Source of the DNA: Neopusillimonas maritima
Lineage (GTDB): Bacteria > Pseudomonadota > Gammaproteobacteria > Burkholderiales > Burkholderiaceae_B
Direction: 5' to 3'
Assembly: GCF_003576595.1 (NCBI RefSeq)
Contig: NZ_NQOU01000008.1
Span: 32,524 to 96,523 of the forward strand
Length of the DNA: 64,000 bases
Within the stretch, counting starts at the first letter, position 1. Each line of letters begins with the position of its first letter. The position numbers and the translations under genes are program-made. Below the pieces are notes generated by a model, which was given only the letters and a program-made list of their open reading frames with translations, did no database searches and was not told the DNA's origin. This document shows positions 2,974 through 56,428 of this stretch, one piece after another.

Positions 2974-3636
2974 ATGCAGGCAGGCCAAGACGTTCGTCGT
3001 CACTTCAACCCGGTTGATAAAGGTTTGATTGAGTTGGGTAGAGCCCTTGAAGTGCTTAGTGGTGTGGCGCATGCGGTGCGCCCCAATCCGGCAGGGCCAC
3101 CACAGGCTGATGAGGCGCAGCTTAATGATACCGATCGTCGTCACTCGGCTGGTTTAATGCGGGTTAACCATGTTGGCGAAGTTTGCGCCCAGGCCTTGTA
3201 TCGCGGGCAGGCTTATTTTTGTCGCGACGCATCAACCCAGGCTGTACTGCATGCGGCGGCTCAGGAAGAGGTGGACCATTTGGCCTGGTGTAATGATCGT
3301 CTGACCCAGTTGAATAGTCATCGCAGTTATTTGAATCCGTTCTGGTATGCGGGTTCTTTCGCATTGGGTGCGTTGGCCGGCCGCGCCGGTACGGCGTCGA
3401 ATCTCGGCTTTATGGCTGAAACCGAGGCGCAGGTTGAACAACATTTGAATCGCCATTTAAAAGCATTACCGGCAGATGACGGTCGCTCGCGCGCCCTTGT
3501 GGAGCAGATGCGGCAAGATGAAATTGCGCATCGTCATCAAGCTGAAGCAGCCGGTGCACGAAAATTGCCTTTTCCGCTTCGATGTGCCATGAAGCTGATG
3601 TCTAAAGTCATGACGACAACGGCGTACCGTATCTAG
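2974..3636 (+). CDS. coq7: Ubiquinone biosynthesis di-iron hydroxylase Coq7
   Basis: Coq7 hydroxylates 2-polyprenyl-3-methyl-6-methoxy-benzoquinol at C6 (5-demethoxyubiquinol hydroxylation), the penultimate step of aerobic ubiquinone synthesis. The 220-residue protein is of the usual betaproteobacterial length. The di-iron ligand pattern is visible: Glu in 'NHVGEVCAQ', E-x-x-H in 'QEEVDHLAW', Glu in '[11 protein letters not shown]' and a second E-x-x-H in '[10 protein letters not shown]'. A membrane-associating hydrophobic patch lies around '[15 protein letters not shown]'. AAGGTG sits a few bases before the ATG. It is monocistronic by position, with 238 bases upstream and the regulatory region of the polysaccharide locus downstream. 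Confidence 0.93.
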
Positions 3637-3655
3637 GTAGGGTGCTAATTTTGCA

Positions 3656-3671
3656 ACAAATTGCAATTTGT
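3656..3671. repeat. Perfect 16-bp palindrome downstream of coq7
   Basis: ACAAATTGCAATTTGT reads identically on both strands. It lies 19 bases after the coq7 stop, in AT-rich DNA, about 115 bases upstream of the -35 box at 3788. Its symmetry suits a dimeric DNA-binding protein; no T-run follows, so it is not an intrinsic terminator. The protein that would bind is unknown. Confidence 0.6.
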
Positions 3672-3688
3672 ATGCATGCTGAGTATTG

Positions 3689-3711
3689 ACCTAGGATTAA
3701 CCCTAGGTTAA
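3689..3711. repeat. Overlapping dyads (ACCTAGG/CCTAGGT and TTAACC/GGTTAA)
   Basis: Two nested inverted repeats share this stretch: ACCTAGG (3689-3695) with CCTAGGT (3702-3708), and TTAACC (3697-3702) with GGTTAA (3706-3711). With flanking partial complementarity the hairpin could extend to about 3683-3714. No T-tract follows. It lies about 75 bases upstream of the predicted -35 box and may be an operator or an activator site; this is inference. Confidence 0.5.
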
Positions 3712-3787
3712 ACTGAGTTCGTCGTTAGGAATTTATGTGTATTTGAAGACGGCAATGTTGTAAAAAAGTTGTAGGACAAAAAATATC

Positions 3788-3816
3788 TTGCATCGCAACA
3801 TTTTTTCAAATACAAT
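3788..3816 (+). promoter_or_regulatory. Strong sigma-70-type promoter upstream of the polysaccharide locus
   Basis: TTGCAT (3788-3793) and TACAAT (3811-3816) are separated by exactly 17 bases, both close to consensus. The predicted transcript start is the A near 3823. The transcript would run into the terminator at 3946-3978 after about 155 nt. Confidence 0.6.
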
Positions 3817-3827
3817 TTGCTTATCGG

Positions 3828-3947
3828 ATGTCGAAACGTGATTGCAAAGGGTTTTCCCCAGTTGAATCATGGTGGCTCAGACAAAAAGTCTTTGTAGCCC
3901 GACATGCCAAGGTTGTCTCCTCCACCCTCCTCCTTTGGTGGATTTAG
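3828..3947 (+). CDS. Possible 39-residue leader peptide (uncertain)
   Basis: An ATG frame begins about 5 bases after the predicted transcript start and ends with TAG at 3945-3947, which overlaps the first bases of the terminator stem. The peptide has two Trp-Trp pairs (residues 15-16 and 37-38), a Leu-Leu-Leu run before the second, and several Arg/Lys. No ribosome-binding site fits in so short a leader, so it would have to be translated almost leaderless. It could be a fortuitous frame across a structured RNA, or a leader peptide whose ribosome covers the terminator. No homologue is recognised. Confidence 0.25.
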   Translation: MSKRDCKGFSPVESWWLRQKVFVARHAKVVSSTLLLWWI

Positions 3948-3978
3948 CCCGAGATCTAAGATCTCGGGCTTTTTTTTT
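3946..3978 (+). terminator. Strong intrinsic terminator
   Basis: A perfect 12-base inverted repeat (AGCCCGAGATCT / AGATCTCGGGCT, one base between the arms; in practice an 8-10 bp stem with a small loop) is followed by nine T residues. It lies between the promoter at 3788 and the first gene of the polysaccharide cluster. Confidence 0.9.
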
Positions 3979-4113
3979 GCCCGGATCAGGGCTAACCCCT
4001 ATTTTTCCCCTGTTTTGATGTAACATTTCTCGTTGCATCTGCTTGCACGTAGCAAGGTAGAGCCAAGAAAGTCACTTCATAATGTAATCAATTTCATCAC
4101 GCATGGTAATAAT

Positions 4114-5253
4114 GTGACCAATCCTCAAACTTGGGATACTGTAACTTGGCTCTACATTTGTGTTGTCGCCTTCATGGTGGGGGGGCTGATTGTTGCCTCG
4201 GAACGCTGGCATGGCAAGCTTACGGGCGATGTGGATTTCAAAAAGCCACAGGCGTCTCACAGCCGTTCAACGCCTCGCGTAGGGGGCCTGGCGGTTGTTG
4301 CGGGTAGCCTGGCAGGGTTGTTGGTGCTTGGCCCAAGCAATATGACACTCACCTGGCTTTGGCCGGTATTGTTTATTGCCGCCATGCCCGTTTTTGTTGC
4401 AGGATTGCTTGAAGACATAACGAAAGATGTTGGCGCCGGCAAACGCCTGTTGGCGGCTTTTTTGTCGGCGGCAATTGCCTGGTGGCTTATAGGGGGTGTG
4501 TCACGTGTCGGCATACCCAGTGTCGACTGGTTGCTGGCTTGGTGGCCGGTATCGCTGGTTTTCACAATGCTGGCGGTTGGCGGCTGTACCCACGCGCTGA
4601 ATATTGTTGACGGCATGAATGGGCTGGCCGGCATGGTAGCGACCTTAATGGCCGTCTCCATTGGTTTGGTGGCGTTGCAGGTACAAGACATTCCCATTTT
4701 TCTGATTTCAGCGGCATTGGCCTCGGCGACCTTGGGTTTCCTGGTTTGGAATTTCCCTTTTGGTCGTGTATTTTTGGGCGATGGCGGGGCTTATTTCCTG
4801 GGCTTTATGTTGGCCGAACTGGCGGTGCAGCTCGTGGTTAGAAACCCTGGCGTATCGCCATTCTATGCGCTGGCAGTCCTGTTTTATCCGGTATTCGAAA
4901 CACTGTTTTCCATATGGCGCCGTCGGTTCAAACGCGGTACGCCCATTGATCAACCCGACGCCTTGCATTTGCATCAACTGGTTTTCCGACGCTTGGTACG
5001 TGTGACATTCAGCCGCGACAGCCGTCATGCCGTGCCGGCGCTATGTAACGCCATGGCGTCGCCGTATTTGTGGGTTCTTACGTTAATTGGTTTGGTGCCT
5101 GCAACGATTTGGTGGGACAGCACGCTGATTCTATGCATCAGCCTGCTGGTGTTTTCTTTGGTATACATCTGGTTGTATTCGCGTCTGGTTTCCTGGCGCG
5201 GCCCCTCCTGGCTGTTGTTGCCGTCTATCGGTAAAACAAAAAAGCCGGATTAA
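4114..5253 (+). CDS. WecA/MraY-family undecaprenyl-phosphate glycosyl-1-phosphate transferase
   Basis: This polytopic inner-membrane enzyme probably starts surface-glycan assembly by moving a HexNAc-1-phosphate from a UDP-sugar onto undecaprenyl phosphate. Family hallmarks seen in order are '[10 protein letters not shown]', the acidic '[15 protein letters not shown]' (equivalent to the DDxxK region), '[11 protein letters not shown]', '[14 protein letters not shown]' and the cytoplasmic '[12 protein letters not shown]' His motif. About ten hydrophobic segments are evident. It is closer to WbpL/WecA than to MraY. I chose the GTG at 4114, just before the first membrane segment; a TTG at 4033 would add 27 residues. 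It is the first gene of the cluster and lies just after a terminator. Confidence 0.85.
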
Positions 5254-5297
5254 ACGAAATTGAATTTTTGTGTGTTTGCGCAAACAAGGAGAATAAG

Positions 5298-6572
5298 TTG
5301 CAGATTGCAGACGTGAAATTGGCGGTTGTCGGCCTGGGATATGTTGGCTTGCCGTTGGCCGTTGAGTTTGGCAAAAAACGCCCGGTGTTGGGGTTTGATA
5401 TTAACGTGCGCCGTATTGCCGAGTTGCAGCAAGGTAAAGACCACACCCGGGAAGTAGAGCCCGAGGAATTGGCACAAGCATCGCACCTGAGCTTTACGCA
5501 CACGACGTCTGAACTGGCTAAGGCCAATGTATTTATTGTGACGGTACCCACCCCCATTGATGATTACAAACAACCGGATCTCACGCCATTGGTGCGGGCC
5601 AGTGAAACAATTGGCAAGGTGCTTAAGCGGGGCGATATTGTTATCTATGAGTCAACTGTTTATCCCGGCGCAACCGAAGAAGATTGCGTACCTGTCCTGG
5701 AGCGTGTGTCGGGCTTGAAATTCAATGAAGATTTCTATGCCGGTTATAGTCCTGAACGCATAAACCCGGGTGATAAACAGCATCGTGTAGCAACAATTAA
5801 AAAGGTCACGTCGGGCTCAACGCCTGAAGTGGCCGAGTTGGTTGATGCTCTTTATCGTGAAATTATCGTCGCCGGCACGCACAAGGCTTCATCTATTCGT
5901 GTTGCGGAGGCGGCCAAGGTTATTGAAAACACCCAGCGCGATGTCAATATTGCGCTCATTAACGAGCTTGCCCTGATCTTCAACAAAATGGGCATTGACA
6001 CTCAGGCGGTGCTGGAAGCGGCCGGAACCAAATGGAACTTTTTGCCGTTTCGCCCCGGTTTGGTTGGGGGGCACTGCATCGGCGTTGATCCTTATTACTT
6101 AACGCACAAAGCCCAAGCCATTGGCTACCATCCAGAAATTATTCTGGCCGGCCGTCGGTTGAATGACTCAATGGGCGGCTACGTGGCGTCGCAACTGATC
6201 AAGGCCATGACCAAACGACGCATCCAGGTGCAGGATTCCCGCATTCTTGTGATGGGCCTGGCGTTCAAGGAAAACTGCCCCGATTTGCGTAATACACGGG
6301 TGGTGGACATTGTGAATGAGCTAAGCGACTACAGCACGCAGGTTGATGTATACGACCCCTGGGTTGATGCTGATGAGGCTCGCGAAGAGTACGGCATCAC
6401 ACCTGTGAAAGAGCCGCAGCAAGGCGCTTACGACGCAATTGTGCTGGCGGTGGCACACAATGAATTCGTGCAAATGGGCGTCGACAAAATCCGGGCGTTG
6501 GGCAAAACCCCGCATGTGTTGTACGACCTGAAGTACCTACTAACGGCGCAAGAAGCCGACCTACGTTTATAA
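5298..6572 (+). CDS. wbpO: UDP-N-acetylhexosamine 6-dehydrogenase (WbpO/TviB-like)
   Basis: The enzyme is an NAD-dependent nucleotide-sugar dehydrogenase of the UDP-glucose/GDP-mannose dehydrogenase family, oxidising C6 twice to a uronic acid. The NAD-binding '[15 protein letters not shown]' is at the N terminus, and the catalytic Cys is near residue 260 in '[12 protein letters not shown]'. The 424-residue length and sequence match TviB/WbpO proteins, so the product is likely UDP-GalNAcA or UDP-GlcNAcA. The TTG start at 5298 is chosen because AAGGAG lies six bases upstream. The next gene encodes the matching C4 epimerase, as in Vi-antigen and P. aeruginosa O6 loci. Confidence 0.88.
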
Positions 6573-6588
6573 GAAAGAGCAGGGCGCT

Positions 6589-7614
6589 ATGAGTGAACGC
6601 TTTCAAGCCGTTGTTAAGCAGTTTCAAGACGAGCCGGGTGTTTGGCTGGTAACCGGATGCGCCGGATTTATTGGGTCGAACCTGCTTGAGGCATTGCTGA
6701 AAATGGGTCAAACAGTCGTGGGTCTGGATAATTTCGCCACCGGCTTTCGGCACAATCTTGAGGAAGTGCAGCGAAACGTTGGTGACCAGGCATGGGGTCG
6801 TTTTCGATTTATAGAGGGTGACATTCGGGATCCCGAACATTGTCACGCGGCGGTTCAGGGAGTGGATTACGTGTTGCATCAGGCGGCGTTGGGCTCGGTG
6901 CCGCGCTCCCTGAATGACCCGGCCACCACGAACGCCGTCAATATTTCCGGTTTTCTTAATATGCTGATCGCGGCGCGCGACGCCAAAGTGAAGTCTTTCG
7001 TGTATGCGGCCTCCAGTTCAACGTATGGCGACCACGAGGCATTGCCGAAGATCGAAGAACGTATTGGTCAACCGCTTTCCCCTTACGCGGTAACCAAATA
7101 CGTGAACGAACTTTATGCCGGCGTTTTTGCACGCTCATACGGTTTCAACAGTATTGGCTTGCGGTACTTCAATGTTTTTGGCCCTCGCCAAACCCCGGAT
7201 GGCGCTTATGCGGCGGTGATACCGCGCTGGATTGGTGCGATGATTCGTAACGAGGCCGTGCATATCAACGGGGATGGAGAAACCAGCCGCGACTTTTGCT
7301 TCGTAGAAAATGTCGTGCAAATGAACGTGCTTGCTGCAGCCGCTTCAGGCGATGCCGTGAATCAGGTTTACAACGTGGCGTTTAACGCGCGCACCAGCCT
7401 GAATCAGTTGTTTGATTACCTGGTCACAACGCTTGCCAAAAACGGGGTTTCATATGATCGCCGCCCCGAATACGGCGATTTCAGGGCCGGCGATGTGCGC
7501 CACTCACAGGCCGACATCGCCAAAGCCCGGAAGCTGTTGGGATATGAGCCACAGTTCAGCATTATTCAGGGGCTTGAAAAAGCCATGCCTTGGTACATTC
7601 AGTTTTTAAGTTAA
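6589..7614 (+). CDS. wbpP: UDP-N-acetylglucosamine 4-epimerase (WbpP/TviC-like)
   Basis: This 341-residue extended short-chain dehydrogenase interconverts UDP-GlcNAc/UDP-GalNAc or their uronic acids. It has the Rossmann motif '[10 protein letters not shown]' near residue 20, the signature '[11 protein letters not shown]', the catalytic Ser region '[10 protein letters not shown]' and the Y-x-x-x-K pair in '[11 protein letters not shown]'. The substrate-loop '[10 protein letters not shown]' follows. Length and sequence are very close to P. aeruginosa WbpP as I recall it. It starts 16 bases after the dehydrogenase stop and is evidently in the same operon; together they should supply UDP-GalNAcA. 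Confidence 0.9.
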
Positions 7615-7615
7615 T

Positions 7616-8974
7616 TTGAAAATCATTCGTGACCGCCTGACCCGCCTGGGATCCGACCATAAGCGCATTGCGCGGGGTGCCATGCGGGTCGCCTTCTTTC
7701 TGCTGTTGGGCAAGTTCGTCGGTGCATTCAAGGAAATGGCCGTCGCGTACCGCTATGGTATTTCCGACGTGGTGGATGCGTACCAATTCACGCTAACCAT
7801 GGCAGGGTGGTTGCCGGTTACCGCCATTGGTGTTCTTTCGGTGGTTTTGATTCCGGTTCTGGTGAAGTTAAAGCGCCAGTCGCAGCAAACGCGTGAGCGC
7901 TTCTTGCAGGAGCTGTTCGGCGTCACTTTAGCCGTTGGGGCCTTGTTGGCAGTGGGTTTGTATTTTGCCTGGCCCTGGGTGCTCGAATGGGTGGGTGCCG
8001 ACTTAACGGCCAACACCCGGGCGATGAGTCAGGAGCTTATGCTGGCGTTCGCTCCCGTGGCCTTGTTAACGCTGGTTGCCGGTGTGAGTTCTGCCCGGTT
8101 GCGGGCGCACGAGCGGCATATCAATACGCTGCTCGACAGTATTCCGGCTTTGCTGATTTTGGTTTGGGTCATGTTGGCGGCAACGGCGGCCGATGTTGGG
8201 CCTTTGCTTTGGGGTACGTTAGTTGGTTACATGATTCAGTCTGCCTGGTTGCTGTGGTTGGCCTCTCACGCCGATAACGTGGGCGTCAAGCCCCGGCTGG
8301 GTTTTCAATCGCCTTATTGGCCTCAGCTGGTGGCTGCCGCGGGCATTATGCTGGTAGGGCAGGTTGCCATGAGCATAGTGGGGCCTTTGGACCAATATAC
8401 CGCGGCCGAGTTAGGTCGCAATGCCAACGCCACGCTGGGTTATGCAAACCGCATTTTGGCGTTGTTGCTAGGTTTGGGCGCGGTGTCTGTTGGGCGTGCC
8501 GCCTTGCCTGTGTTGTCGGACATCCACAGTCGGGGTGACGCCGCGCAGGGCCGGCGCATGGCTTTGAAATGGTCTGTTCTCATGCTGGGCATGGGCATGG
8601 CGGCTGCGCTGATGGGATGGTTGCTTGCGCCGTGGGGTGTGAGTTTATTGTTCGAGCGTGGCGCTTTTACGGAACAAGACACCATGAGGGTTGCCGGCGT
8701 GTTTCGTTGGGGCTTGCTGCAAATGCCGTTTTATTTCGGCGTTCTGGTGCTGGTTCAATTACTTGCAAGCCAGAATCGTTACCGCATCATGGCGGTCATT
8801 GCATTAGGGAATTTTGCGCTCAAGGCGCTATTGAACCCCATACTGGGTTCAGCCATGGGCTTGCAGGGCGTGATGTTGGCAACAGCATGTATGTATGCAT
8901 TGTCATATGGTTGCTATGTTTTGGCAGCGCTCAAGTCTGTTGCAAACGAAGCGCCGTCCGGCCCTGCGCAATAA
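7616..8974 (+). CDS. MurJ/MviN-family lipid-linked oligosaccharide flippase (Wzx role)
   Basis: The 452-residue protein is almost entirely membrane-embedded, with about twelve to fourteen hydrophobic segments. The MurJ-type N-terminal region is recognisable as 'GKFVGAFKEMAVAYRYG...DAYQF'. MurJ proteins flip lipid II; here the position between sugar-nucleotide and glycosyltransferase genes suggests it exports the undecaprenyl-linked glycan, the job done by Wzx in O-antigen loci. The TTG at 7616 begins two bases after the previous stop and has a poor ribosome site. An ATG at 7682 is possible but leaves almost nothing before the first membrane segment. Whether a separate lipid II MurJ exists cannot be judged here. 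Confidence 0.8.
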   Translation: MKIIRDRLTRLGSDHKRIARGAMRVAFFLLLGKFVGAFKEMAVAYRYGISDVVDAYQFTLTMAGWLPVTAIGVLSVVLIPVLVKLKRQSQQTRERFLQELFGVTLAVGALLAVGLYFAWPWVLEWVGADLTANTRAMSQELMLAFAPVALLTLVAGVSSARLRAHERHINTLLDSIPALLILVWVMLAATAADVGPLLWGTLVGYMIQSAWLLWLASHADNVGVKPRLGFQSPYWPQLVAAAGIMLVGQVAMSIVGPLDQYTAAELGRNANATLGYANRILALLLGLGAVSVGRAALPVLSDIHSRGDAAQGRRMALKWSVLMLGMGMAAALMGWLLAPWGVSLLFERGAFTEQDTMRVAGVFRWGLLQMPFYFGVLVLVQLLASQNRYRIMAVIALGNFALKALLNPILGSAMGLQGVMLATACMYALSYGCYVLAALKSVANEAPSGPAQ

Positions 8975-8995
8975 TCGTATTCAGAAGGAATTGGT

Positions 8996-10165
8996 GTGGT
9001 TAGGTTGAAGCGTTCCCCGCATTTGATGATTGTGATTCACTCGCTGCATGGCGGTGGTGCTGAGCGCGTGACGGTTGATTTAAGCGAGTTTTGGCGCGCC
9101 CGAGGCTATGAGGTAACGGTTGTCACGCAAGCCGGGCCCGAACATGATGCTTACCAGCTTCACGCTAACGTGCGTCGCGAAGTATTGGGTACGGCCGGGG
9201 CCAGCGGCAATAAATTGAAAGCGCTTTACTCGAATTTACGTCGCTTATGGCGTTTGCGGCGGCTGATCCGAAAGTATGAACCCACCATTATTCTGGGCAT
9301 GATGACAACGTCTTCGGTGCTCGCCATATTGGCGGCCAGAGGCCTGTCATGTCGCGTGATCGCAACCGAACACACGCATCCGCCGTTTCAGGATCTGCCG
9401 TCGGTGTGGAAAAAAATGCGAAAGAAAGCATATCCGCAAGCGTATAAAGTGGTCGCGCTCACGTCGGATACCGCCCGGTGGGTTAAAGAAAACATTCCCG
9501 GCAGCCAGGTTTGCGTCATTCCGAATGCCGTCGTCTGGCCGCTTGCGCAAACCGATCCCGTGGTCGAACCACCTCAGCGCGGAACGCGCAGACGATTGCT
9601 GGCGGTGGGGCGCTTGCATTCGCACAAAGGTTTTGACCTTCTTTTGACCGCTTTCGCGTCGATTCAGTCATACTTCCCAGATTGGGATCTTGTGATTCTG
9701 GGTGAAGGCTCCGACCGGGAGTCGCTTCAGGCACAAGTGCAACAGCTGGGCTTGGATGAGCGCGTTGCCATGCCGGGTCGGGTCGGTAATGTGGGGCAGT
9801 GGTATCAGTCGTCCGACCTTTATGTGCTTAGTTCACGCGTTGAGGGCTTGTCTAACACGTTGCTGGAGTCAATGGCAAGTGGCTTGCCGGTTGTTGCGTT
9901 CGATTGTGATACGGGGCCGCGTGAAATTGTGCGTCACGGGATTGACGGCGCATTGGTGAGTCCGCCCGAGGATGTCGATGCCCTGGCCGCACATCTTTCC
10001 GATTTAATGGCGCATCCCGATAAGCGCAGAATGTTGGCCATGCGCGCGGTGGATGTGCGTGACCGGTTTTCGTCGGTCAGGGTCATGGCCTTGTGGCGAC
10101 AAGTATTTGAGGGGGGCAATACCCCGGAGCAAAACAAAGGAAGTAGCTCATGTGCGGAATCGTAG
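8996..10165 (+). CDS. Glycosyltransferase family 4 protein
   Basis: The 389-residue GT-B enzyme transfers a sugar from a nucleotide donor to the growing lipid-linked glycan at the cytoplasmic face. The N-terminal acceptor domain opens with 'VIHSLHGGGAERVTVDL', a signature of capsule and O-antigen transferases. The donor-binding C-terminal domain has 'VGRLHSHKGFDLLL' and the retaining-GT4 E-x7-E pair in 'SRVEGLSNTLLESMASG'. GTG is chosen as start because AGAAGGA lies a suitable distance upstream. The 3' end overlaps the amidotransferase gene by 16 bases. Donor and linkage cannot be predicted. Confidence 0.88.
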   Translation: MVRLKRSPHLMIVIHSLHGGGAERVTVDLSEFWRARGYEVTVVTQAGPEHDAYQLHANVRREVLGTAGASGNKLKALYSNLRRLWRLRRLIRKYEPTIILGMMTTSSVLAILAARGLSCRVIATEHTHPPFQDLPSVWKKMRKKAYPQAYKVVALTSDTARWVKENIPGSQVCVIPNAVVWPLAQTDPVVEPPQRGTRRRLLAVGRLHSHKGFDLLLTAFASIQSYFPDWDLVILGEGSDRESLQAQVQQLGLDERVAMPGRVGNVGQWYQSSDLYVLSSRVEGLSNTLLESMASGLPVVAFDCDTGPREIVRHGIDGALVSPPEDVDALAAHLSDLMAHPDKRRMLAMRAVDVRDRFSSVRVMALWRQVFEGGNTPEQNKGSSSCAES

Positions 10166-12066
10166 GAGTTTGGGGTGGTATTCCCGACAAAATGGCGGTA
10201 TTGGCGCGAAGTCGCGCAGCGATGCGCCATAGAGGGCCGGATGACGAAGGGTTCTGGGAAGATATTGAAAACGATCTGGGCCTGGCCCATGTTCGCTTGT
10301 CCGTTCTGGATGTCTCGCATGCCGGACACCAGCCCATGGTTTCCGCTTGCGGGCGATACGTACTCGTGTTGAACGGGGAAATATACAACCACTTGGCATT
10401 GCGTGAGCTGTTAACGATTCAGGGGCAGGCGCCCGATTGGCGTGGCCACTCTGATACAGAAACCTTATTGGCCGCCATGGTCGCCTGGGGGATTGAGGCA
10501 ACATTGAAATCTGCCGTGGGCATGTTCGCCCTGGCGTTGTGGGATCGCAGCGAGCGTGCGTTGTATTTGGCCCGCGACCGGATGGGAGAGAAGCCGCTGT
10601 ATTACGGGTTTACCGGTTCAACTTTGTTTTTTGCATCCGAATTGAAAGCGCTGCATCCCATTCCGGGTGTTGATTGGACCCTTAACCGGGATGCGGTCGC
10701 ATTAATGATGCGGCACAACTATATTCCGGCGCCGCATTCCATTCATCGGAATGTGCGCAAACTCATGCCGGGCAGCTATTTGCGCTATACGCGTGACACC
10801 CTTCCAAATCAGTTCGACCAGCAGACAGTTTCGTATTGGTCTGCCTACGACGTCGCGCTTGATGGTGTGAAACAGCCCCTTGCCTTTAGTCGTGATGACG
10901 ATGCGCTGGATGCACTCGACGGCGTGCTCGCTACATCGATCAGGGGTCAAATGATGGCCGATGTACCGCTGGGCGCGTTTTTGTCGGGCGGTATCGACTC
11001 CTCACTTGTGGTGGCAATGATGCAATCGCAATGCGCCGATCCGGTCAACACTTTTTCCATCGGCTTTAATGAACCCCGTTTTAACGAGGCCGAACATGCC
11101 CGCGCCGTGGCGGAACATTTGGGCACCCGGCATACCGAGTTGTACGTGTCGGCGCACGATGCCATGTCCGTCCTTCCAGACTTGCCGAAAATCTACGACG
11201 AGCCGTTTGCCGATGCGTCGCAAATTCCCACCTGCTTGTTAATGCGTTTGGCGCGTCAGCACGTGACGGTGTCATTGTCCGGTGACGGAGGTGATGAGTT
11301 GTTCGGGGGGTATAGCCGTTATCAACGAGCGATGTCGTGGTGGGATCGCCGCGCATCACTTCCCAGCTCGCTCAGCCAGACCGTAGGGCGTATGTCAGGC
11401 GGTGCTGCCCGCTGGATGCCTGGGGCGAGCAGGTCGCAACGTCTGGCCAAATTGGGGCACATTCTTACGGCGTCGGGCGCGGGGCCGTTTTACCAGCAGT
11501 TCGTGTCGTATCAAGGCGACCCGGCCTCATTTGTGTTGGGTTCAAAACTGCCACCCACACCGTTTGATAAAGCGACGAATCTTGCATTTTTTGACCACAT
11601 CACCTGGCTTGATGCCGTAACGTATTTGCCCGACGATATTCTGGTTAAAGTCGATCGTGCCGCGATGGCCGTTAGCCTTGAAACGCGGGTGCCGATGCTG
11701 GATCACCGCGTTTACGCTTTTGCCCGGCGTTTACCGCAACAGTACAAAATTCGCGATGGCCAGGGAAAATGGTTATTACGTCAATTATTGCATCGCTATG
11801 TGCCATCCGCCTTGGTCGATCGGCCCAAGAAGGGCTTTAGTGTTCCGTTGGGAGAATGGTTGCGTGACCCCCTTAGGGAGTGGGCCGCCTCTTTGTTGGA
11901 TCCCGTTCAATTGAAGCACGATGGTTTGTTTGACGCCGATCGTGTTCAGCAGGAATGGCGTCGGCATTTGTCTGGTCGGGAGGACCGCAGCGGCCAATTG
12001 TGGGGAATCCTCATGACGCAAGCCTGGCTGGCGCATTATCGCGATAAAGGGTTAAGCGGTTTGTGA
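10150..12066 (+). CDS. asnB: Asparagine synthase (glutamine-hydrolysing)-family amidotransferase, AsnB/WbpS-like
   Basis: The 638-residue protein has an N-terminal class II glutamine amidotransferase domain with the nucleophile Cys2 in 'MCGIVGVWGG' (residues 1 to about 210), followed by the ATP-pyrophosphatase domain with 'SGGIDSS' at about 279-285 and 'SLSGDGGDELFGGY'. True AsnB makes asparagine. Inside polysaccharide clusters with GalNAcA genes, homologues such as P. aeruginosa WbpS are thought to amidate the uronic acid carboxyl group, which I infer here. AAGGAAG precedes the ATG and the Met1 is removed in this family. It overlaps glycosyltransferase genes at both ends. Confidence 0.88.
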   Translation: MCGIVGVWGGIPDKMAVLARSRAAMRHRGPDDEGFWEDIENDLGLAHVRLSVLDVSHAGHQPMVSACGRYVLVLNGEIYNHLALRELLTIQGQAPDWRGHSDTETLLAAMVAWGIEATLKSAVGMFALALWDRSERALYLARDRMGEKPLYYGFTGSTLFFASELKALHPIPGVDWTLNRDAVALMMRHNYIPAPHSIHRNVRKLMPGSYLRYTRDTLPNQFDQQTVSYWSAYDVALDGVKQPLAFSRDDDALDALDGVLATSIRGQMMADVPLGAFLSGGIDSSLVVAMMQSQCADPVNTFSIGFNEPRFNEAEHARAVAEHLGTRHTELYVSAHDAMSVLPDLPKIYDEPFADASQIPTCLLMRLARQHVTVSLSGDGGDELFGGYSRYQRAMSWWDRRASLPSSLSQTVGRMSGGAARWMPGASRSQRLAKLGHILTASGAGPFYQQFVSYQGDPASFVLGSKLPPTPFDKATNLAFFDHITWLDAVTYLPDDILVKVDRAAMAVSLETRVPMLDHRVYAFARRLPQQYKIRDGQGKWLLRQLLHRYVPSALVDRPKKGFSVPLGEWLRDPLREWAASLLDPVQLKHDGLFDADRVQQEWRRHLSGREDRSGQLWGILMTQAWLAHYRDKGLSGL

Positions 12067-13190
12067 TGAATATCCTGTTTTTTGTCAGTTCGTTGAATGC
12101 AGGGGGGGCGGAGCGGGTGGCCGTGACCCTGGCAAACGCCTGGGCAGGTCAAGGCCATCGGGTAACGCTGGTGCCTACTTACGGGAAAAAATCGGAAAGC
12201 TTTTATGAGCTTGGCCCTGATGTGCGAGTGCATTGGCTTATTGACACCATTGTCGGGTCGGTGCTTTATCGGCGGGCGCGGTATGCGGGAAAGTTGTTGG
12301 CTGTGCGAAAGACAATCCGTCGTGAGCAACCCGACGTCGTGGTGTCTTTTCTAACCAATGTCAATGTCACAGTGTTGGCGGCATCCATTGGTTTGAACGT
12401 ACCCGTGGTGGTTTGCGAGCGTACCAATCCATCGGCCAGTCGCCATAGTCGCGGTGCGCTGCACGCTTTGCGAAAGATACTTTATCCGCGGGCCAGTGCA
12501 ATATGTGTGCAAACGTCGGCTGCAGAAGCTTATTTTCAGGCAAGGCTGGGCAAAAACCTTCCGTTGTTTGTTATTCCCAATCCGTTACCGGACGCCCTGG
12601 GTGGCGGTCCGCGCGCATCGTTGAACGCCGACGCCATGGGGCGCTATCGCCTGGTGGCTTTGGGACGTTTGGTTCCCGAGAAACAGTTTTCGCATCTAAT
12701 ACGTGTCTTTGCCGGGTTGGCCAAGCAGTTTCCCGATTGGGATTTGTGGGTCTACGGCGAGGGGCCGGAACGAACACAGCTTGAATCATTAATTCAGCAG
12801 TTTGATTTAAACCAACGCATCTTCTTGCCCGGCACAACGGCGAATCCTTGGGATGTTTTGCGCGAAGGCAGTTTGTTTGCCATGACGTCTCGTGTTGAGG
12901 GGTTCCCCAATGTGCTGCTTGAGGCAATGGGCTGCGGCTTGCCCTGCATTGCTTACGATTGTCCAAGCGGGCCTTCAGAGATCATGGAGGGCGGTCGCGC
13001 AGGGGTGTTGGTGCCGCTGAACGATGAGCAAGGTTATGCGTCGGCGCTGGGCGCTTTAATGGCCAACCCAGGGACGCGTCGGCAGTTGGGCCAACTTGCG
13101 TTACAACGTGTTTTGCAGCGATTCAGCCGGCCGGTTGTCTTAACGCAGTGGAGCCAAATGTTTTCCAAGGTAGGGGTGCGTCATGATTAA
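12066..13190 (+). CDS. Glycosyltransferase family 4 protein
   Basis: This 374-residue GT-B transferase has the same design as the gene upstream of the amidotransferase. It begins 'MNILFFVSSLNAGGAERVAV', has a C-terminal donor domain with 'LGRLVPEKQFSHLI' and the E-x7-E pair in 'SRVEGFPNVLLEAMGCG'. The ATG shares one base with the TGA of the amidotransferase gene, implying translational coupling. A GTG one codon upstream is a less likely start. It should add one residue of the glycan; the donor sugar is not predictable. Resemblance to 8996-10165 suggests the two arose by duplication. Confidence 0.88.
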   Translation: MNILFFVSSLNAGGAERVAVTLANAWAGQGHRVTLVPTYGKKSESFYELGPDVRVHWLIDTIVGSVLYRRARYAGKLLAVRKTIRREQPDVVVSFLTNVNVTVLAASIGLNVPVVVCERTNPSASRHSRGALHALRKILYPRASAICVQTSAAEAYFQARLGKNLPLFVIPNPLPDALGGGPRASLNADAMGRYRLVALGRLVPEKQFSHLIRVFAGLAKQFPDWDLWVYGEGPERTQLESLIQQFDLNQRIFLPGTTANPWDVLREGSLFAMTSRVEGFPNVLLEAMGCGLPCIAYDCPSGPSEIMEGGRAGVLVPLNDEQGYASALGALMANPGTRRQLGQLALQRVLQRFSRPVVLTQWSQMFSKVGVRHD

Positions 13191-15501
13191 ATCCCCCAAG
13201 GTGCATGTTGTGCATATTATCGGTGGGCTGGGGCAGGGGGGCGCCGAGACGGTGATGTATCGTTTACTGACGCAATCAACCGCCCGGTTTGAGCACACCG
13301 TGATCTCTTTAACGGATGCCGGCGTGTTCGGGCCGCGCCTTGAACAGGCCAATATTGAAGTTATTAGTTTGGGCATGTCTTCGGGGCGTGTTTCTTGGTC
13401 GGCGTTAAAAGCGTTATACCGTTTGTTGAAACAGTTGCGCCCGGATGTGGTGCAAACCTGGATGTACCATGCCGACCTCATCGGCGGGGTGGTCGCGCGG
13501 CTGGCCGGCGTTCGACATGTTGTTTGGGGTATCCGGAACTCGGGTGCACACCTTGAGCGAACCAGCCGGGCGGTGCGACTTTCGGCCTGGCTGTGCGCGC
13601 GTTTGTCCGGATTGGTTCCGGCGGCCATTGTGGCATGCGCCAATGATGCAGCTGAACGGCATCAGAAGAAAGGATACGCAGCGGCGAAAATGCAGGTTAT
13701 TCCCAATGGCTACGATATGGCGCGGTGGTCGTCCGATGCCGCCACGCGTATCAAGCTTCGTGCACAGTTGGGTGTTTCGCTTAATACGCCGCTGCTCGGT
13801 GCAGTGGCGCGTTGGCATCCTTTGAAGGATCACGCCAATTTAATTGATGCTTTCTCTAAAGTGGTTCAGGCGCATTCACAGGCCCGATTAGTGCTGGTGG
13901 GCGATGGGATGGATTCAGCCAATCCGGAGTTGATGGAGTTGCTCAGGCGGCACGGCGTCGAGGCGCAGGTGTTGTTGTTGGGTCGTCGTGACGACATTCC
14001 CGCGGTGATGAATGCATTGGATATTCACGTGTTGTCCAGTTGCGCGGAAGGGTTTCCGAACGTGGTGGCTGAGGCAATGGCAGTGGGGGCGGCCAATGTG
14101 GTAACCGACGTGGGTGATGCGGCATACATTGTTGATGCGTTTGGTTGGGTCGCGCCGCCCCGGGATCCTGCCGCGCTTGCTCACTCCCTGGGTGAGGCAA
14201 TTTGCGCCTTGGGTTCACCGGCCATGGCCGTGCGCTTGCAGAAAGGGCGTGAACGGGTACAAATAGAATTCAGCCTTGGCGCTATGGTGTCGCGATATGA
14301 AGGGTTATGGGCGAAGTTGGCCGGCGGCCGCCGCTTACTGATGGTGGTGAATAATCCGGCCTTTATCATGTCGCATCGTCTGCCCATTATTCAGGCGGCC
14401 CGCACCGCCGGCTACGATGTTCATTTGGCGACAATGGATGGGCCGGCAGTGGCGTCGTTGCGGGCGTTGGGCTTTACGCATCATGTCGTGCCCATGAACC
14501 GTAGCGGCCGCAATCCCGTTAAAGAGATTTATACCGTTTATTCATTGTGGCGCCTGTTTCGTCGTCTGCGTCCGGCCATTGTGCATACCGTCACCATTAA
14601 GCCTGTGTTGTACGGTGGTATTGCCGCACGGCTGGCCCGCGTTCCCGGTTTTGTAGCGGCAATTTCCGGTCTTGGGTTTGTTTTTACCGGTGCCGGCTTC
14701 AAGGCGCGGTCGCTACGCGTGGTTGCCACGTTGCTTTATCGAGTCGCCCTGGGGCATGGCAACAGTCGAATTATTTTTCAGAATCCCGATGACAGCCGTT
14801 TAATGCAGAAGTTTGGTGCCGTTCGCGAATCGCAAGTCGTCATGATTCGGGGTTCAGGCGTTGATATGCAGGCGTGGCCAATCGAACCCGAGCCGCCGGG
14901 GCCGCTTGTTGCGCTGATGGTGTCGCGCCTTTTGAAAGATAAAGGCGTTGAAGAGTTCGTGGAAGCCGCGCGGCTTTCCCAAACTCATCCATTAGGTGTG
15001 CAATGGAAAATAGCCGGAAGCCTCGACCCAGGCAACCCGGCCAGCATTTCCCCTGAAACCCTGGCTCAGTGGCGCGCAGAAGGGGTGGTGACTTTTCTGG
15101 GTGAGTGCGACAACATTGCCGGGCAATATGCGCAGTCGCATATTGCCGTGCTTGCTTCGTATCGCGAAGGGCTTCCCAAATCGCTTATCGAAGCTGCGGC
15201 TTCCGGGCGGGCTGTTGTCACAACCGATGTTCCCGGTTGTCGCGACGCGATCGTGCCGAACGAAACGGGGCTTTTGGTGCCGGTACAAGATGCTCCTGCG
15301 CTTGCGGCTGTCGTGCAAAGGTTGGCTGAAAATAAGGTGTTACGGCAAGCCATGGGGCAGGCCGGTAGGCGGTTTGCCGAACGTGTATTTGATATTCGCG
15401 AAGTGCAACGACTGCATCTGGAGACTTATGCGGTGCTGCTTGCGCGTAAGCGGCATACCCAGCCCAAACGCATCGAGCCCCGTTTGCCTGAGTCTGAATA
15501 G
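13183..15501 (+). CDS. Tandem fusion of two GT4 glycosyltransferases
   Basis: At 772 residues this is twice the normal length of a GT4 enzyme. Residues 1 to about 375 form one GT-B unit ('HIIGGLGQGGAETVMYRLL' at the start, E-x7-E in 'CAEGFPNVVAEAMAVG'). From about residue 380 a second complete unit begins ('RRLLMVVNNPAFIMSHRLP'), with a hydrophobic patch around 'AAISGLGFVFTGAGF' and E-x7-E in 'YREGLPKSLIEAAASG'. The second half resembles exopolysaccharide transferases often encoded as separate proteins. Both halves retain the catalytic motifs, so two consecutive sugars may be added by one polypeptide. It overlaps the previous gene by 8 bases and ends the cluster. Confidence 0.88.
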   Translation: MIKSPKVHVVHIIGGLGQGGAETVMYRLLTQSTARFEHTVISLTDAGVFGPRLEQANIEVISLGMSSGRVSWSALKALYRLLKQLRPDVVQTWMYHADLIGGVVARLAGVRHVVWGIRNSGAHLERTSRAVRLSAWLCARLSGLVPAAIVACANDAAERHQKKGYAAAKMQVIPNGYDMARWSSDAATRIKLRAQLGVSLNTPLLGAVARWHPLKDHANLIDAFSKVVQAHSQARLVLVGDGMDSANPELMELLRRHGVEAQVLLLGRRDDIPAVMNALDIHVLSSCAEGFPNVVAEAMAVGAANVVTDVGDAAYIVDAFGWVAPPRDPAALAHSLGEAICALGSPAMAVRLQKGRERVQIEFSLGAMVSRYEGLWAKLAGGRRLLMVVNNPAFIMSHRLPIIQAARTAGYDVHLATMDGPAVASLRALGFTHHVVPMNRSGRNPVKEIYTVYSLWRLFRRLRPAIVHTVTIKPVLYGGIAARLARVPGFVAAISGLGFVFTGAGFKARSLRVVATLLYRVALGHGNSRIIFQNPDDSRLMQKFGAVRESQVVMIRGSGVDMQAWPIEPEPPGPLVALMVSRLLKDKGVEEFVEAARLSQTHPLGVQWKIAGSLDPGNPASISPETLAQWRAEGVVTFLGECDNIAGQYAQSHIAVLASYREGLPKSLIEAAASGRAVVTTDVPGCRDAIVPNETGLLVPVQDAPALAAVVQRLAENKVLRQAMGQAGRRFAERVFDIREVQRLHLETYAVLLARKRHTQPKRIEPRLPESE

Positions 15502-19405: not shown

Positions 19406-21196
19406 ATGAAACTTTCTAATTCTTTGTTATCCATTTTGTTCGCAGGTTTTTTTCTGCAGGGCGCAGCGCTTGATGCGAATGCGCAAACGGGCAGCCCGTT
19501 AGAGCCTACTCCTTCGGCTGAGCCTGTAGAGCATATACATCTGCACCCCGATTCGCTGCCTTCGGTGAATTTAACCGGCGAAATGTTATACAAGTTGCTA
19601 GTTGCCGAGTTTGCAGCGCAAAGGGGCGAGATGGGTGTGGCGACAGACGTATTCTACGAGCTGGCGCGCACGACCTCCGATCCACGTTTGGCAAAACGGG
19701 CATTTCAGTACGCCATGGTGGCACGCAATTTCCCCAAGGCGAACCGCGCGGCTCAATTGTGGGCATTGATTGCACCAAACGACCCTGAAGCGGTTGCCAG
19801 CTCGTTGGCGATGTCTGCGTCGAACGGGGAAACGGAAGGCTTGGCCGATGCGCTCTGGAAGCGCATTGAAAATGCCCAGGATAAGGAAGTGGCCATTGGT
19901 CAGGCTGCGGCAATCGTGGGCAAACTGAATGACCGTACGGCAGCCTACGACATTTTGCGCTCGGCATTGCGCGAGCCGGTACAGAATTTGCCGGTCACTT
20001 GGTTGGCGCTTTCAGACATGGCTTGGGCGGCGGGCGATCCAGGGCGCGCCCTGGCGCATGCCGAGCGTGCCCAGCAGCTTGACCCGGCGTCAGAGCCGGC
20101 GGCGCAACGTATTCTTGAATATGGCTTGAAAGTTGATCCCGACGCGGCGATCAGCGCGGCTCAACGTTACCTCGAGCGATATCCGCAAGCAGACGACCTT
20201 GGTTTATTGCTTGTACGGCGGCTAACAGAAGCGGGTCGTGTTGACCAGGCATTAATGCAGGTTCAGGCCATGCGTGAGGCAGCGCCGGAAAATTTTGATT
20301 TGCTTTACACCGAGGCGGAAGTGAATGCCCGGTCGGAGCGATATGACCAGGCCAAAGCGTTGTTGAATGAATATATCGCAGTGCAAATGCAGCGGCGCGA
20401 GTCGATTGACGATAAAGCCAGTAATGCAATAGCGGATGCCTCCGACGCGCGTCTGATGCTGGTGCGAATTGCAGAGCGCCAGGACAATCTCGAAGAAGCG
20501 ATTGAACAGTTGAGTCTCATTGACGACCCTTCCTTGATTTTTCAATCGCAAATTCACAAAGCGGTGTTGTATGGCCGAATGGGCAAGCTGGAGCAGGCGC
20601 GTGGAGTGATTGATACGATTGCGCCCCAGAATGATCAGGAGCGGACAGTAGCGGCGTTAACGTTGGCTTCGATATATCGTGATGCCGGGCGTACAGACCT
20701 GGCGGTTGAAACGCTTGAGAAAGCCGACAAAGCCTTGCCTGATACACCGGAAATTAAGTACGACTTGGGGATGCTTTACGAGCGTCAGGGCAAGTACGAC
20801 GCCTTCGAAAAAATGATGCGGCGAATTATCGATCTCACGCCCGACGACGCCAACGCATACAACTCTTTGGGCTATACGTTTGTTGAACAGAATACGCAGC
20901 TGGACGAAGCCCAGGCTTTACTGGAGAAAGCACTGCAACTGGAGCCTGATAACCCATACATTCTGGATAGTGTGGGTTGGTATTTTTATCGTACGGGCGA
21001 TTATGAATCTGCGTTGCAATATTTGCAGCGTTCGTTTGAAATTCTGCCAGAGGCCGAGGTGGCAGCACATTTGGGTGAGGTGTTGTGGGTAATGGGCCGA
21101 AAAGATGAAGCGCGGGAGATCTGGAAGCAGGGGAAGCAAAAAGATGCAAACAACGAAACCCTGCTTAAGACCATTGAACGACTTGGGGCCGAATAA
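19406..21196 (+). CDS. Exported tetratricopeptide-repeat protein
   Basis: The 596-residue protein has an N-terminal signal peptide (residues 1 to about 26, cleavage after 'DANAQ' or nearby) with no lipobox Cys. It continues with TPR repeats almost throughout; the clearest lie in the last third ('AYNSLGYTFVEQNTQLDEA', 'YILDSVGWYFYRTGDYESA'). Such proteins are periplasmic scaffolds in betaproteobacteria and are regularly encoded just before lolB. The stop is two bases before lolB, so a link to outer-membrane lipoprotein sorting is suggested by context only. No catalytic motif is visible. Confidence 0.85.
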   Translation: MKLSNSLLSILFAGFFLQGAALDANAQTGSPLEPTPSAEPVEHIHLHPDSLPSVNLTGEMLYKLLVAEFAAQRGEMGVATDVFYELARTTSDPRLAKRAFQYAMVARNFPKANRAAQLWALIAPNDPEAVASSLAMSASNGETEGLADALWKRIENAQDKEVAIGQAAAIVGKLNDRTAAYDILRSALREPVQNLPVTWLALSDMAWAAGDPGRALAHAERAQQLDPASEPAAQRILEYGLKVDPDAAISAAQRYLERYPQADDLGLLLVRRLTEAGRVDQALMQVQAMREAAPENFDLLYTEAEVNARSERYDQAKALLNEYIAVQMQRRESIDDKASNAIADASDARLMLVRIAERQDNLEEAIEQLSLIDDPSLIFQSQIHKAVLYGRMGKLEQARGVIDTIAPQNDQERTVAALTLASIYRDAGRTDLAVETLEKADKALPDTPEIKYDLGMLYERQGKYDAFEKMMRRIIDLTPDDANAYNSLGYTFVEQNTQLDEAQALLEKALQLEPDNPYILDSVGWYFYRTGDYESALQYLQRSFEILPEAEVAAHLGEVLWVMGRKDEAREIWKQGKQKDANNETLLKTIERLGAE

Positions 21197-22743: not shown

Positions 22744-22820
22744 TGGGGAATCGCCAAGTTGGTTAAGGCACTGGATTTTGATTCCAGCATGCGAAGGTTC
22801 GAATCCTTCTTCCCCAGCCA
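22744..22820 (+). tRNA. tRNA-Gln (anticodon TTG)
   Basis: The cloverleaf is complete: acceptor TGGGGAA pairs with TTCCCCA (22810-22816), discriminator G, and CCA is encoded at 22818-22820. The anticodon arm CTGGA/TCCAG encloses the loop TTTTGAT, giving anticodon UUG, which reads CAA and wobbles to CAG. The T arm has the usual GGTTCGAATCC core. It follows ispE by one base and precedes prs, so it is probably processed from the operon transcript. Confidence 0.96.
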
Positions 22821-42645: not shown

Positions 42646-43792
<1,147 letters not shown>

Positions 43793-55625: not shown

Positions 55626-56428
55626 GGGTGCTGCTGCATATTTCGGACCCCCATTTCGGCACAGAGCGGCCGCAAGTCGTTAAGGCACTGGAGCGTCTGG
55701 CACATGCCCAGGCGCCTGAATTGGTGATTCTGTCTGGTGATATTACCCAGCGTGCGCGCAAGGTTGAATTCGCTGCGGCCGGCGCCTTTATGGACCGGCT
55801 GGCAGTGCCGTCCCGACTGGTTATTGCCGGTAATCATGATATCCCGCTATTCGACCTGGTCACTCGCATTTTCGGGCCTTATTCACGCTACAGGCGGGTC
55901 TTCGGTTCCGACCTTGAGCCTGTTCATGATGCGCCGGAATTGCTGGTTATAGGTGTGCGGACAACGCGCCGTTATCGGCATATCGAAGGCGAGGTTTCGG
56001 CAAGACAGATTGAGCATGTGGCCCGACGCTTGAAACAGGCTGATGCAAACCAACTACGCATTGTTGTGACGCACCAACCTGTTTATGTCACTCACGCTGA
56101 AGATGAGGAGCACCTGTTGCGCGGTCATCAGAAAGCCGTGACCGAGTGGGCGCAGGCCGGGGCCGATTTGATATTGGGCGGCCACATTCATCGTCCGTTT
56201 ATTTCAGGGCTGCACGACAGCTTTACCAGCCTGCAGCGGCCGGTGTGGATTGTTCAGGCCGGCACTGCCGTGTCGACCCGTATCCGGCATGACTCAAACA
56301 ACTCCGTCTATGTGATACGGCATGGCTTGGCCCGTGGAGCACGCCAATGTGAGATTGAGCGCTGGGACTATGACGAAGATTCCAATGAGTTCGCCATGAT
56401 ACAAAGCAAGGCTTTGCGAATTGCATAA
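55622..56428 (+). CDS. Calcineurin-like metallophosphoesterase
   Basis: The 268-residue protein has the five metal-binding blocks of the family: D-x-H in 'HISDPHFG', 'ILSGDITQRARKVEF' (GD), 'VIAGNHDIPLF' (GNHD), 'VVTHQPVY' and 'GGHIHRP' (GHxH). The active site is intact with two metal ions expected. Substrates of this subgroup include cyclic nucleotides, UDP-sugars and lipids; none can be picked. Its ATGA overlap with the lipid kinase upstream suggests a shared pathway in phospholipid turnover, which is inference. Confidence 0.87.
   Translation: MRVLLHISDPHFGTERPQVVKALERLAHAQAPELVILSGDITQRARKVEFAAAGAFMDRLAVPSRLVIAGNHDIPLFDLVTRIFGPYSRYRRVFGSDLEPVHDAPELLVIGVRTTRRYRHIEGEVSARQIEHVARRLKQADANQLRIVVTHQPVYVTHAEDEEHLLRGHQKAVTEWAQAGADLILGGHIHRPFISGLHDSFTSLQRPVWIVQAGTAVSTRIRHDSNNSVYVIRHGLARGARQCEIERWDYDEDSNEFAMIQSKALRIA

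Follow-up and report, generated by a model that had tools for sequence, protein, structure and literature searches.

The window, by which we mean the whole 64-kb stretch of DNA analysed here, carries an S17-type small RNA gene of the RF02278 family whose -35 hexamer lies inside a predicted operator of the PHB regulator PhaR. We regard it as quite probable that PhaR keeps this RNA repressed up to the formation of PHB granules, and that the RNA then blocks the translation of mRNAs for uptake and catabolism. The wider reading, that throughout the Burkholderiales the PhaR regulon has the RF02278 RNAs as its RNA arm, appears reasonably likely; PhaR on granules would then free phasin and a ribosome-site-blocking RNA together, the latter either from its own boxed promoter or from the tail of the phasin mRNA.

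The RNA gene and its family

A search of the whole window against Rfam recovered RF02278 (Betaproteobacteria toxic sRNA) at 3914-3977 on the + strand, with 70.8 bits against a gathering score of 50 and with the full model covered (positions 1-64 of 64). This contradicts the original prediction, which had recognised neither an Rfam family nor a known product at this place. Sequence, folding and alignment display the features of the family, namely a CU-rich 5' end, a hairpin with a CU-rich loop and a terminator hairpin, and a single RF02278 copy is present in the 3.25-Mb genome. The order of the locus, coq7 - RNA - glycosyltransferase, is that of the S17 locus of Bordetella pertussis. Judged by its sequence, the RNA adds a new member to a family already described and is orthologous to S17. 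The features of the locus are:

2974..3636, + strand: coq7, the upstream neighbour (PF03232, 150.6 bits)
3785..3801, + strand: predicted PhaR operator ATCTTGCATCGCAACAT, core TGC-ATC-GCA at 3789-3797, overlapping the -35 hexamer (18.2 bits with the matrix described below)
3788..3793, + strand: -35 hexamer TTGCAT, from the sequence; the same as in the mapped S17 promoter
3811..3816, + strand: -10 hexamer TACAAT after a 17-nt spacer, from the sequence
3823..3978, + strand: S17L-like primary transcript as predicted, length about 156 nt; its start, the A located 7 bp past the -10, is placed by analogy to S17
3826..3908, + strand: 5' domain, with GGATGTCG as its closing helix (3826-3833 with 3900-3908); the inner helices show compensatory changes in the alignment of 20 of the 35 orthologues
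3828..3947, + strand: 39-codon open frame, judged not coding (in-frame ATG in 13/35 orthologues)
3914..3978, + strand: RF02278 / S17S-like mature part (Rfam match 3914-3977), probably released by RNase E as in S17
from 3914, + strand: Site 1, the CU-rich 5' end of the mature part
3921..3942, + strand: first hairpin of the mature RNA, TCCACC / GGTGGA with a CU-rich loop, from folding; invariant in 20 relatives
3927-3936, + strand: Site 2, the loop within the mature part
3946..3978, + strand: intrinsic terminator, 11-bp stem and nine T, from the sequence; two pairs change on both sides in relatives
4033..5253, + strand: glycosyltransferase family 4 gene, the downstream neighbour, start codon uncertain (PF00953, 105.5 bits)

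Both promoter hexamers with their spacer, and the hairpin at 3946-3970 followed by nine T (3970-3978), are found exactly where they had been predicted, and the unit foreseen as about 155 nt measures about 156 nt when counted from the A at 3823, seven bases past the -10. The TTGCAT-N17-TACAAT promoter is not among the hits of a plain sigma-70 scan because TTGCAT fits only three of the six consensus bases; its support comes instead from conservation in relatives and from the mapped promoter of S17.

In B. pertussis, S17 starts at an A located 7 bp past the -10 of TTGCAT-N17-TACTAT, and ends in a nine-T terminator, and RNase E shortens it from 190 to 67 nt; it is an Hfq-binding RNA with at least one mRNA as a directly repressed target (PMC11722255). 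Its loss raises 92 genes; in 70 of these, complementary sites lie at the ribosome site or close to it, and the affected genes include many transporters and phenylacetate catabolism; S17 slows E. coli only modestly (PMC11722255). The RNA of the window resembles S17 in its coq7 and glycosyltransferase neighbours, in TTGCAT with a 17-bp spacer, in the A start 7 bp past the -10, in the nine-T terminator and in having a long form with a conserved 3' part, but its 5' part is shorter, giving about 156 versus 190 nt overall. By this analogy RNase E would cut near 3914 in the window's species. Of the two options offered by the original prediction, that of a trans-acting RNA is thus favoured by the membership in RF02278/S17 and by the RNA having its own conserved promoter and terminator.

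Relatives of the RNA have also been described in B. cenocepacia, which has three to five RF02278 copies. There ncS27 is processed and affects amino-acid and carbohydrate use, three of four members are up 4.3- to 8.0-fold in glucose medium, and the authors call the regulation of these sRNAs unknown (PMC5688073, PMC10987360); three of the copies share a 'common upstream motif' (PMC5688073). Like ncS27 and the other double-hairpin RNAs of that species, the RNA of the window has two hairpins, CU-rich unpaired stretches and a predicted pairing with ribosome sites, but it is single-copy.

RF02278 matches were found in 48 of the 61 genomes of our set of relatives (own genome included) and in 158 of 250 genomes of the order, 93 of them over the gathering score, as against none of 14 control genomes. 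We take the family to which the window belongs (f1) as Alcaligenaceae and the order as Burkholderiales. The best match of each f1 genome in the set of relatives yields 35 orthologues, two of the 37 f1 genomes being without a match; coq7 lies upstream in 31 of the 35, and in nine the 1.5 or 3 kb of flank that were examined contain no such glycosyltransferase. A phage origin was rejected, since 3600-4060 had no match in the phage collection searched. The only other Rfam match in the window is a tRNA gene at 22744-22817. The region 4033-15501 is a glycan cluster, with, among the frames scanned, those for the family-4 glycosyltransferase, a UDP-glucose/GDP-mannose dehydrogenase, an epimerase, a MurJ-like flippase, an asparagine synthase and a double glycosyltransferase.

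Folding of 3823-3985 gave a z-score of -3.57, with none of 200 shuffled sequences as stable. All the pairings that had been proposed are present: 3828-3833 with 3900-3905, which extends to the 8-bp helix that closes the 5' domain, GGG/CCC at 3849-3858, and 3921-3926 with 3937-3942. Covariation was examined in the 20 of 35 orthologues whose 5' parts could be aligned, the other 15, with more divergent 5' parts, being excluded. In this alignment 97.8% of the cells of five helices are paired, a figure that leans towards structure because the structure was derived from the consensus of the same alignment. Changes on both sides of a pair are better structural evidence: they occur in 17 cells against 4.4 +/- 1.7 in shuffles and in 8 pairs against 3.2, and sliding the partner strand destroys the signal. 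One of five measures, that of further pair types, showed no excess over shuffles (134 of 500). The both-side changes are located in the 5' domain and the terminator; the hairpin of the mature part never varies in the 20 relatives, so that covariation speaks neither for nor against it.

A predicted PhaR operator over the -35 hexamer

Conservation continues past the -35 hexamer. Alignment of the 35 f1 orthologues gave CTTGCRNYGCA, which is present within 300 nt upstream of the RNA in every one of them. The palindrome at the -35, which we consider the informative part of this region, was missing from the original prediction. Its core resembles that of PhaR operators: the consensus in R. eutropha is YTKNTGCRNYGCANMAR (PMC12849132), and the operator of PhbF in H. 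seropedicae, established by footprint and reporter repression, is TG[N]TGC[N]3GCAA (PMC3206438). The site in the window departs from the R. eutropha consensus at three positions, all of them in the flanks, which counts against the PhaR reading; 12 of the 35 orthologues have a single mismatch.

To avoid leaning on a published consensus, the phasin genes (PF09361) of relatives were taken as the training source. The core TGCRNYGCA is present within 400 nt upstream in 29 of 30 phasin loci, versus 0.116 occurrences per 410 nt elsewhere in the same loci; the thirtieth is cut short and its position is uncertain. The upstream regions of phaR contain the core in only 4 of 30 cases, and hence the matrix was built from phasins alone. 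It has 17 positions, comprises 54 sites from 28 phasin loci (two short loci of the 30 were dropped), was made palindromic and used no sRNA. Its consensus is TTGTTGCAATGCAACAA, and of 28 spacings between sites in the phasin promoters 21 are 54-57 nt. With this matrix 3785-3801 is the top position in the 64 kb of the window, its 18.2 bits comparing with a median of 21.8 for the phasin sites. As the -35 hexamer falls inside this match, repression by PhaR is predicted, and we infer that PhaR binds 3785-3801 in this bacterium. Other matches of the matrix in the window, at 43232-43248, 56061-56077 and 21006-21022 (16.9, 15.8 and 13.5 bits; probably incidental) and at 3219, were rejected as operators since all lie inside reading frames.

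The promoter of locus L038 has a site at -70 according to the matrix. Among 34 f1 promoters, a position exactly 56 nt further upstream of the operator has the highest mean score of 101 distances; only two single sites at that distance score above zero, and we therefore claim no second operator for the window.

Loci of named relatives with the exact 29-nt core of the RNA numbered at least 119, of which 80 were used. In these, many of which are from related species and so not independent, a site of at least 10 bits lies within 300 nt upstream of 66 of 77 evaluable copies, versus 0.5% of 644 random segments from the same loci. Counted per locus, such a site is present upstream in 65/76 and in the 300 nt downstream in 3/78, and 200 column-permuted matrices found it in a mean of 0.5 and a maximum of 11 of 76 loci. 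Pairs of sites at a distance of 55-57 nt occur in eight named loci, and the full palindrome is present in two Bordetella genomospecies (L144, L152). Against the PhaR reading count the 11 copies without a site, ten from Cupriavidus or Ralstonia and one from Aquabacterium; most Cupriavidus/Ralstonia loci without it have another palindrome instead. Sites are also weak or missing in multi-copy genomes, which likewise counts against this reading: seven copies in one genome (G042) comprise four at 10.7-11.5 bits and three below 10, and in another (G017) both extra copies of the RNA are without a site.

Two side observations concern these named loci. At L168 and at L141, L146, L172, L174, L183, L200 and L211, all from Cupriavidus or Ralstonia, the PhaR-like palindrome is absent and TTGCAT is preceded instead by a conserved sequence similar to ATTTCGTAGTGCAAAT (in L168 in mirrored form), as if a different regulator had taken over. 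In a Pigmentiphaga sp. (L214) the RNA core is present as two exact tandem copies at a distance of 377 nt, both having a PhaR-like site of their own at -118.

Predicted operator, PhaR and phasin genes across the order

PhaR (PF07879) is found in 171 of the 250 genomes of the order. Among the 93 genomes over the RF02278 gathering score, 69 have PhaR and in 24 it was not found; a site of at least 10 bits is present in 61 of the former versus 2 of the latter. The corresponding p is 3e-12 for 61/69 versus 2/23, p values having been computed before the ninety-third genome was included. By family, with families sorted by hand, the site occurs in the majority of genomes in 16 of 19 families with PhaR versus 1 of 9 without (Fisher p = 4e-4). 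One of the two genomes with a site but no PhaR found is G157, whose assembly is 85% complete and whose genus mate does have PhaR; the other is G079, where the site, of 13.4 bits, lacks the exact core. On the opposite side, 8 of the 69 PhaR genomes are without a 10-bit site, and the site is missing from G175, which has PhaR, just as it is from G044, a genus mate without PhaR; both facts count against the proposed link.

A different arrangement was recovered in two further genomes, G055 and G057, in which a weaker RF02278 match lies past the stop codon of a phasin gene and is closed by a hairpin with a T run that resembles a terminator. In the family of G057 (f22) 16 of 28 genomes have matches, none of them strong enough to reach the gathering score. 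Twelve of the 16 have a match that starts 20-126 nt past the end of a phasin alignment, and there one or two PhaR-like sites exceeding 15 bits stand further upstream and phaR adjoins; the remaining 4 have no phasin beside the match. In the family of G055 a match is present in 39 of 41 genomes, and all 27 best-match loci over the gathering score that were examined (L315-L341) have an upstream site of at least 10 bits, PhaR presence having been determined in a minority of the 41 genomes. The RNA thus occurs in two gene arrangements, behind its own PhaR-boxed promoter or coupled to phasin, with the same predicted control. The family of G057 also has a second RF02278-like paralogue, of the CTCCTCCTCGTCCT type, without a strong PhaR-like site (L344-L366), which in several of its genomes stands beside the phasin-coupled one.

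Alternative readings, mechanism and candidate targets

The chief alternative accepts an S17-type RF02278 sRNA but takes the palindrome for the site of another regulator or for an extended -35, leaving the link to PHB indirect. The -35 hexamer does by itself explain part of the conserved bases, TTGCAT occurs without the full palindrome in most Cupriavidus/Ralstonia loci, and in B. pertussis it is the Bvg mode that sets the level of the RNA (PMC11722255). The YGCA beyond the -35 is nevertheless kept in 35/35 orthologues, the site tracks the presence of PhaR, column-permuted matrices miss it, and an RNA-like match lies behind a phasin gene in family f22, all of which makes this alternative unlikely.

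The other two readings concern the nature of the transcript. A role as leader or attenuator for the glycan cluster downstream, the second option of the original prediction, might be suggested by the transcript ending about 54 nt before the opening of the frame at 4033 on the same strand; we rejected this very improbable reading on account of the strong nine-T terminator and of the 9/35 orthologues without a glycosyltransferase in the flank examined. Moreover, elsewhere the RNA is often found with coq7 but no such gene nearby, or behind phasin, and the forms of S17 on Northern blots are about 190 and about 70 nt long (PMC11722255). It is extremely unlikely that the transcript is a small mRNA for a 39-residue peptide. 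An open frame with an ATG does run through 3828-3947, and one of 32 residues is noted for S17 (PMC11722255), but an in-frame ATG ahead of the core is present in only 13 of 35 orthologues, among which frames and stops vary, while the other 22 are stop-broken or startless; the start would be missing from the mature RNA, and conservation follows base pairs. As the frame is not kept in relatives, the coding reading was rejected.

Under the preferred reading, an S17-type RNA repressed by PhaR, PhaR on 3785-3801 would keep polymerase off the -35 as long as there is no PHB. When PHB granules form, PhaR would be drawn to them and the RNA would be made together with phasin; R. eutropha PhaR is known to leave its operator for nascent PHB granules (PMC12849132). 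After processing near 3914 the CU-rich end and the loop could cover purine-rich ribosome sites, in this species presumably, by analogy, on mRNAs of transporters and catabolic enzymes, so that a cell storing carbon would lower further carbon uptake and breakdown. The data from B. pertussis and B. cenocepacia are consistent with such a storage-linked brake.

Repression of an sRNA by PhaR is already known: MmgR of Sinorhizobium meliloti is repressed by PhaR (AniA) and has a PhaR box in its promoter (PMC12542648, PMC8401924). The predicted PhaR-boxed promoter in the window is like that of MmgR, which itself acts in carbon storage; the likeness is one of description, and MmgR, unlike the present RNA, is alphaproteobacterial and is reported to lower phasin levels. 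With the PhaR/PhbF regulon of R. eutropha and H. seropedicae the locus shares the TGC-N3-GCA core at or near the promoter, and phasin genes have sites in both; the known targets named there are PHB genes, and PMC12849132 nowhere uses the word sRNA (PMC12849132, PMC3206438). For S17 a promoter repressor has been postulated but left unnamed (PMC11722255), whereas for the RNA of the window we propose PhaR, B. pertussis being compared through the published hexamers only. What is new here is the switch, with PhaR as candidate repressor for RF02278/S17 RNAs, and it offers a candidate answer to the question left by the authors of the S17 and B. cenocepacia studies, namely what controls these RNAs. 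If PhaR is the repressor, post-transcriptional control on a broad scale would, in a large order of bacteria, be gated directly by a storage polymer, and the PhaR-MmgR pair of the Alphaproteobacteria would gain a counterpart; if the RF02278 RNAs are the RNA arm of the regulon, carbon storage would directly shut carbon intake and the postulated repressor of S17 would have a name. Among the matches listed, no open-access title or abstract start tied RF02278, S17 or ncS27 to PhaR; an earlier notice of the box in supplementary material on B. cenocepacia is possible.

The own genome encodes PhaR and one phasin, whose two sites score 20.6 and 18.6 bits and lie 56 nt apart. For candidate targets of the RNA, GGAGGAGACA was sought before ATG codons and occurs once outside the RNA gene (control 0); a looser pattern occurs at five places, one of them the RNA gene itself (control 3). 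The candidate starts belong to an ABC-transporter binding protein (PF13458) and a cytochrome P450 (PF00067). Of two candidate starts, one has a pairing energy of -19.9 and one of -26.0; the best of 25 ordinary gene starts of the window has -21.9, so that the -26.0 start beats all 25 and the -19.9 start does not. The yield of this search did not clearly exceed its controls, and given the small counts and mixed energies these candidates are not used as evidence. The exact operator pattern WTNNTGCRNYGCANNAW has 15 places in the 3.25 Mb versus 1 for the reversed control. Outside longer frames there are four of these: the pair before phasin, the one at the RNA gene and one before a 64-codon frame. 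A fifth, at the very start of the frame for DXP reductoisomerase (L384), may be incidental. The 64-codon frame (1603-1797 in L372:1501-1797, contig C11) has promoter-like sequence and a 20.9-bit PhaR-like site upstream, and from this arrangement its product is possibly a small protein of the PhaR regulon.
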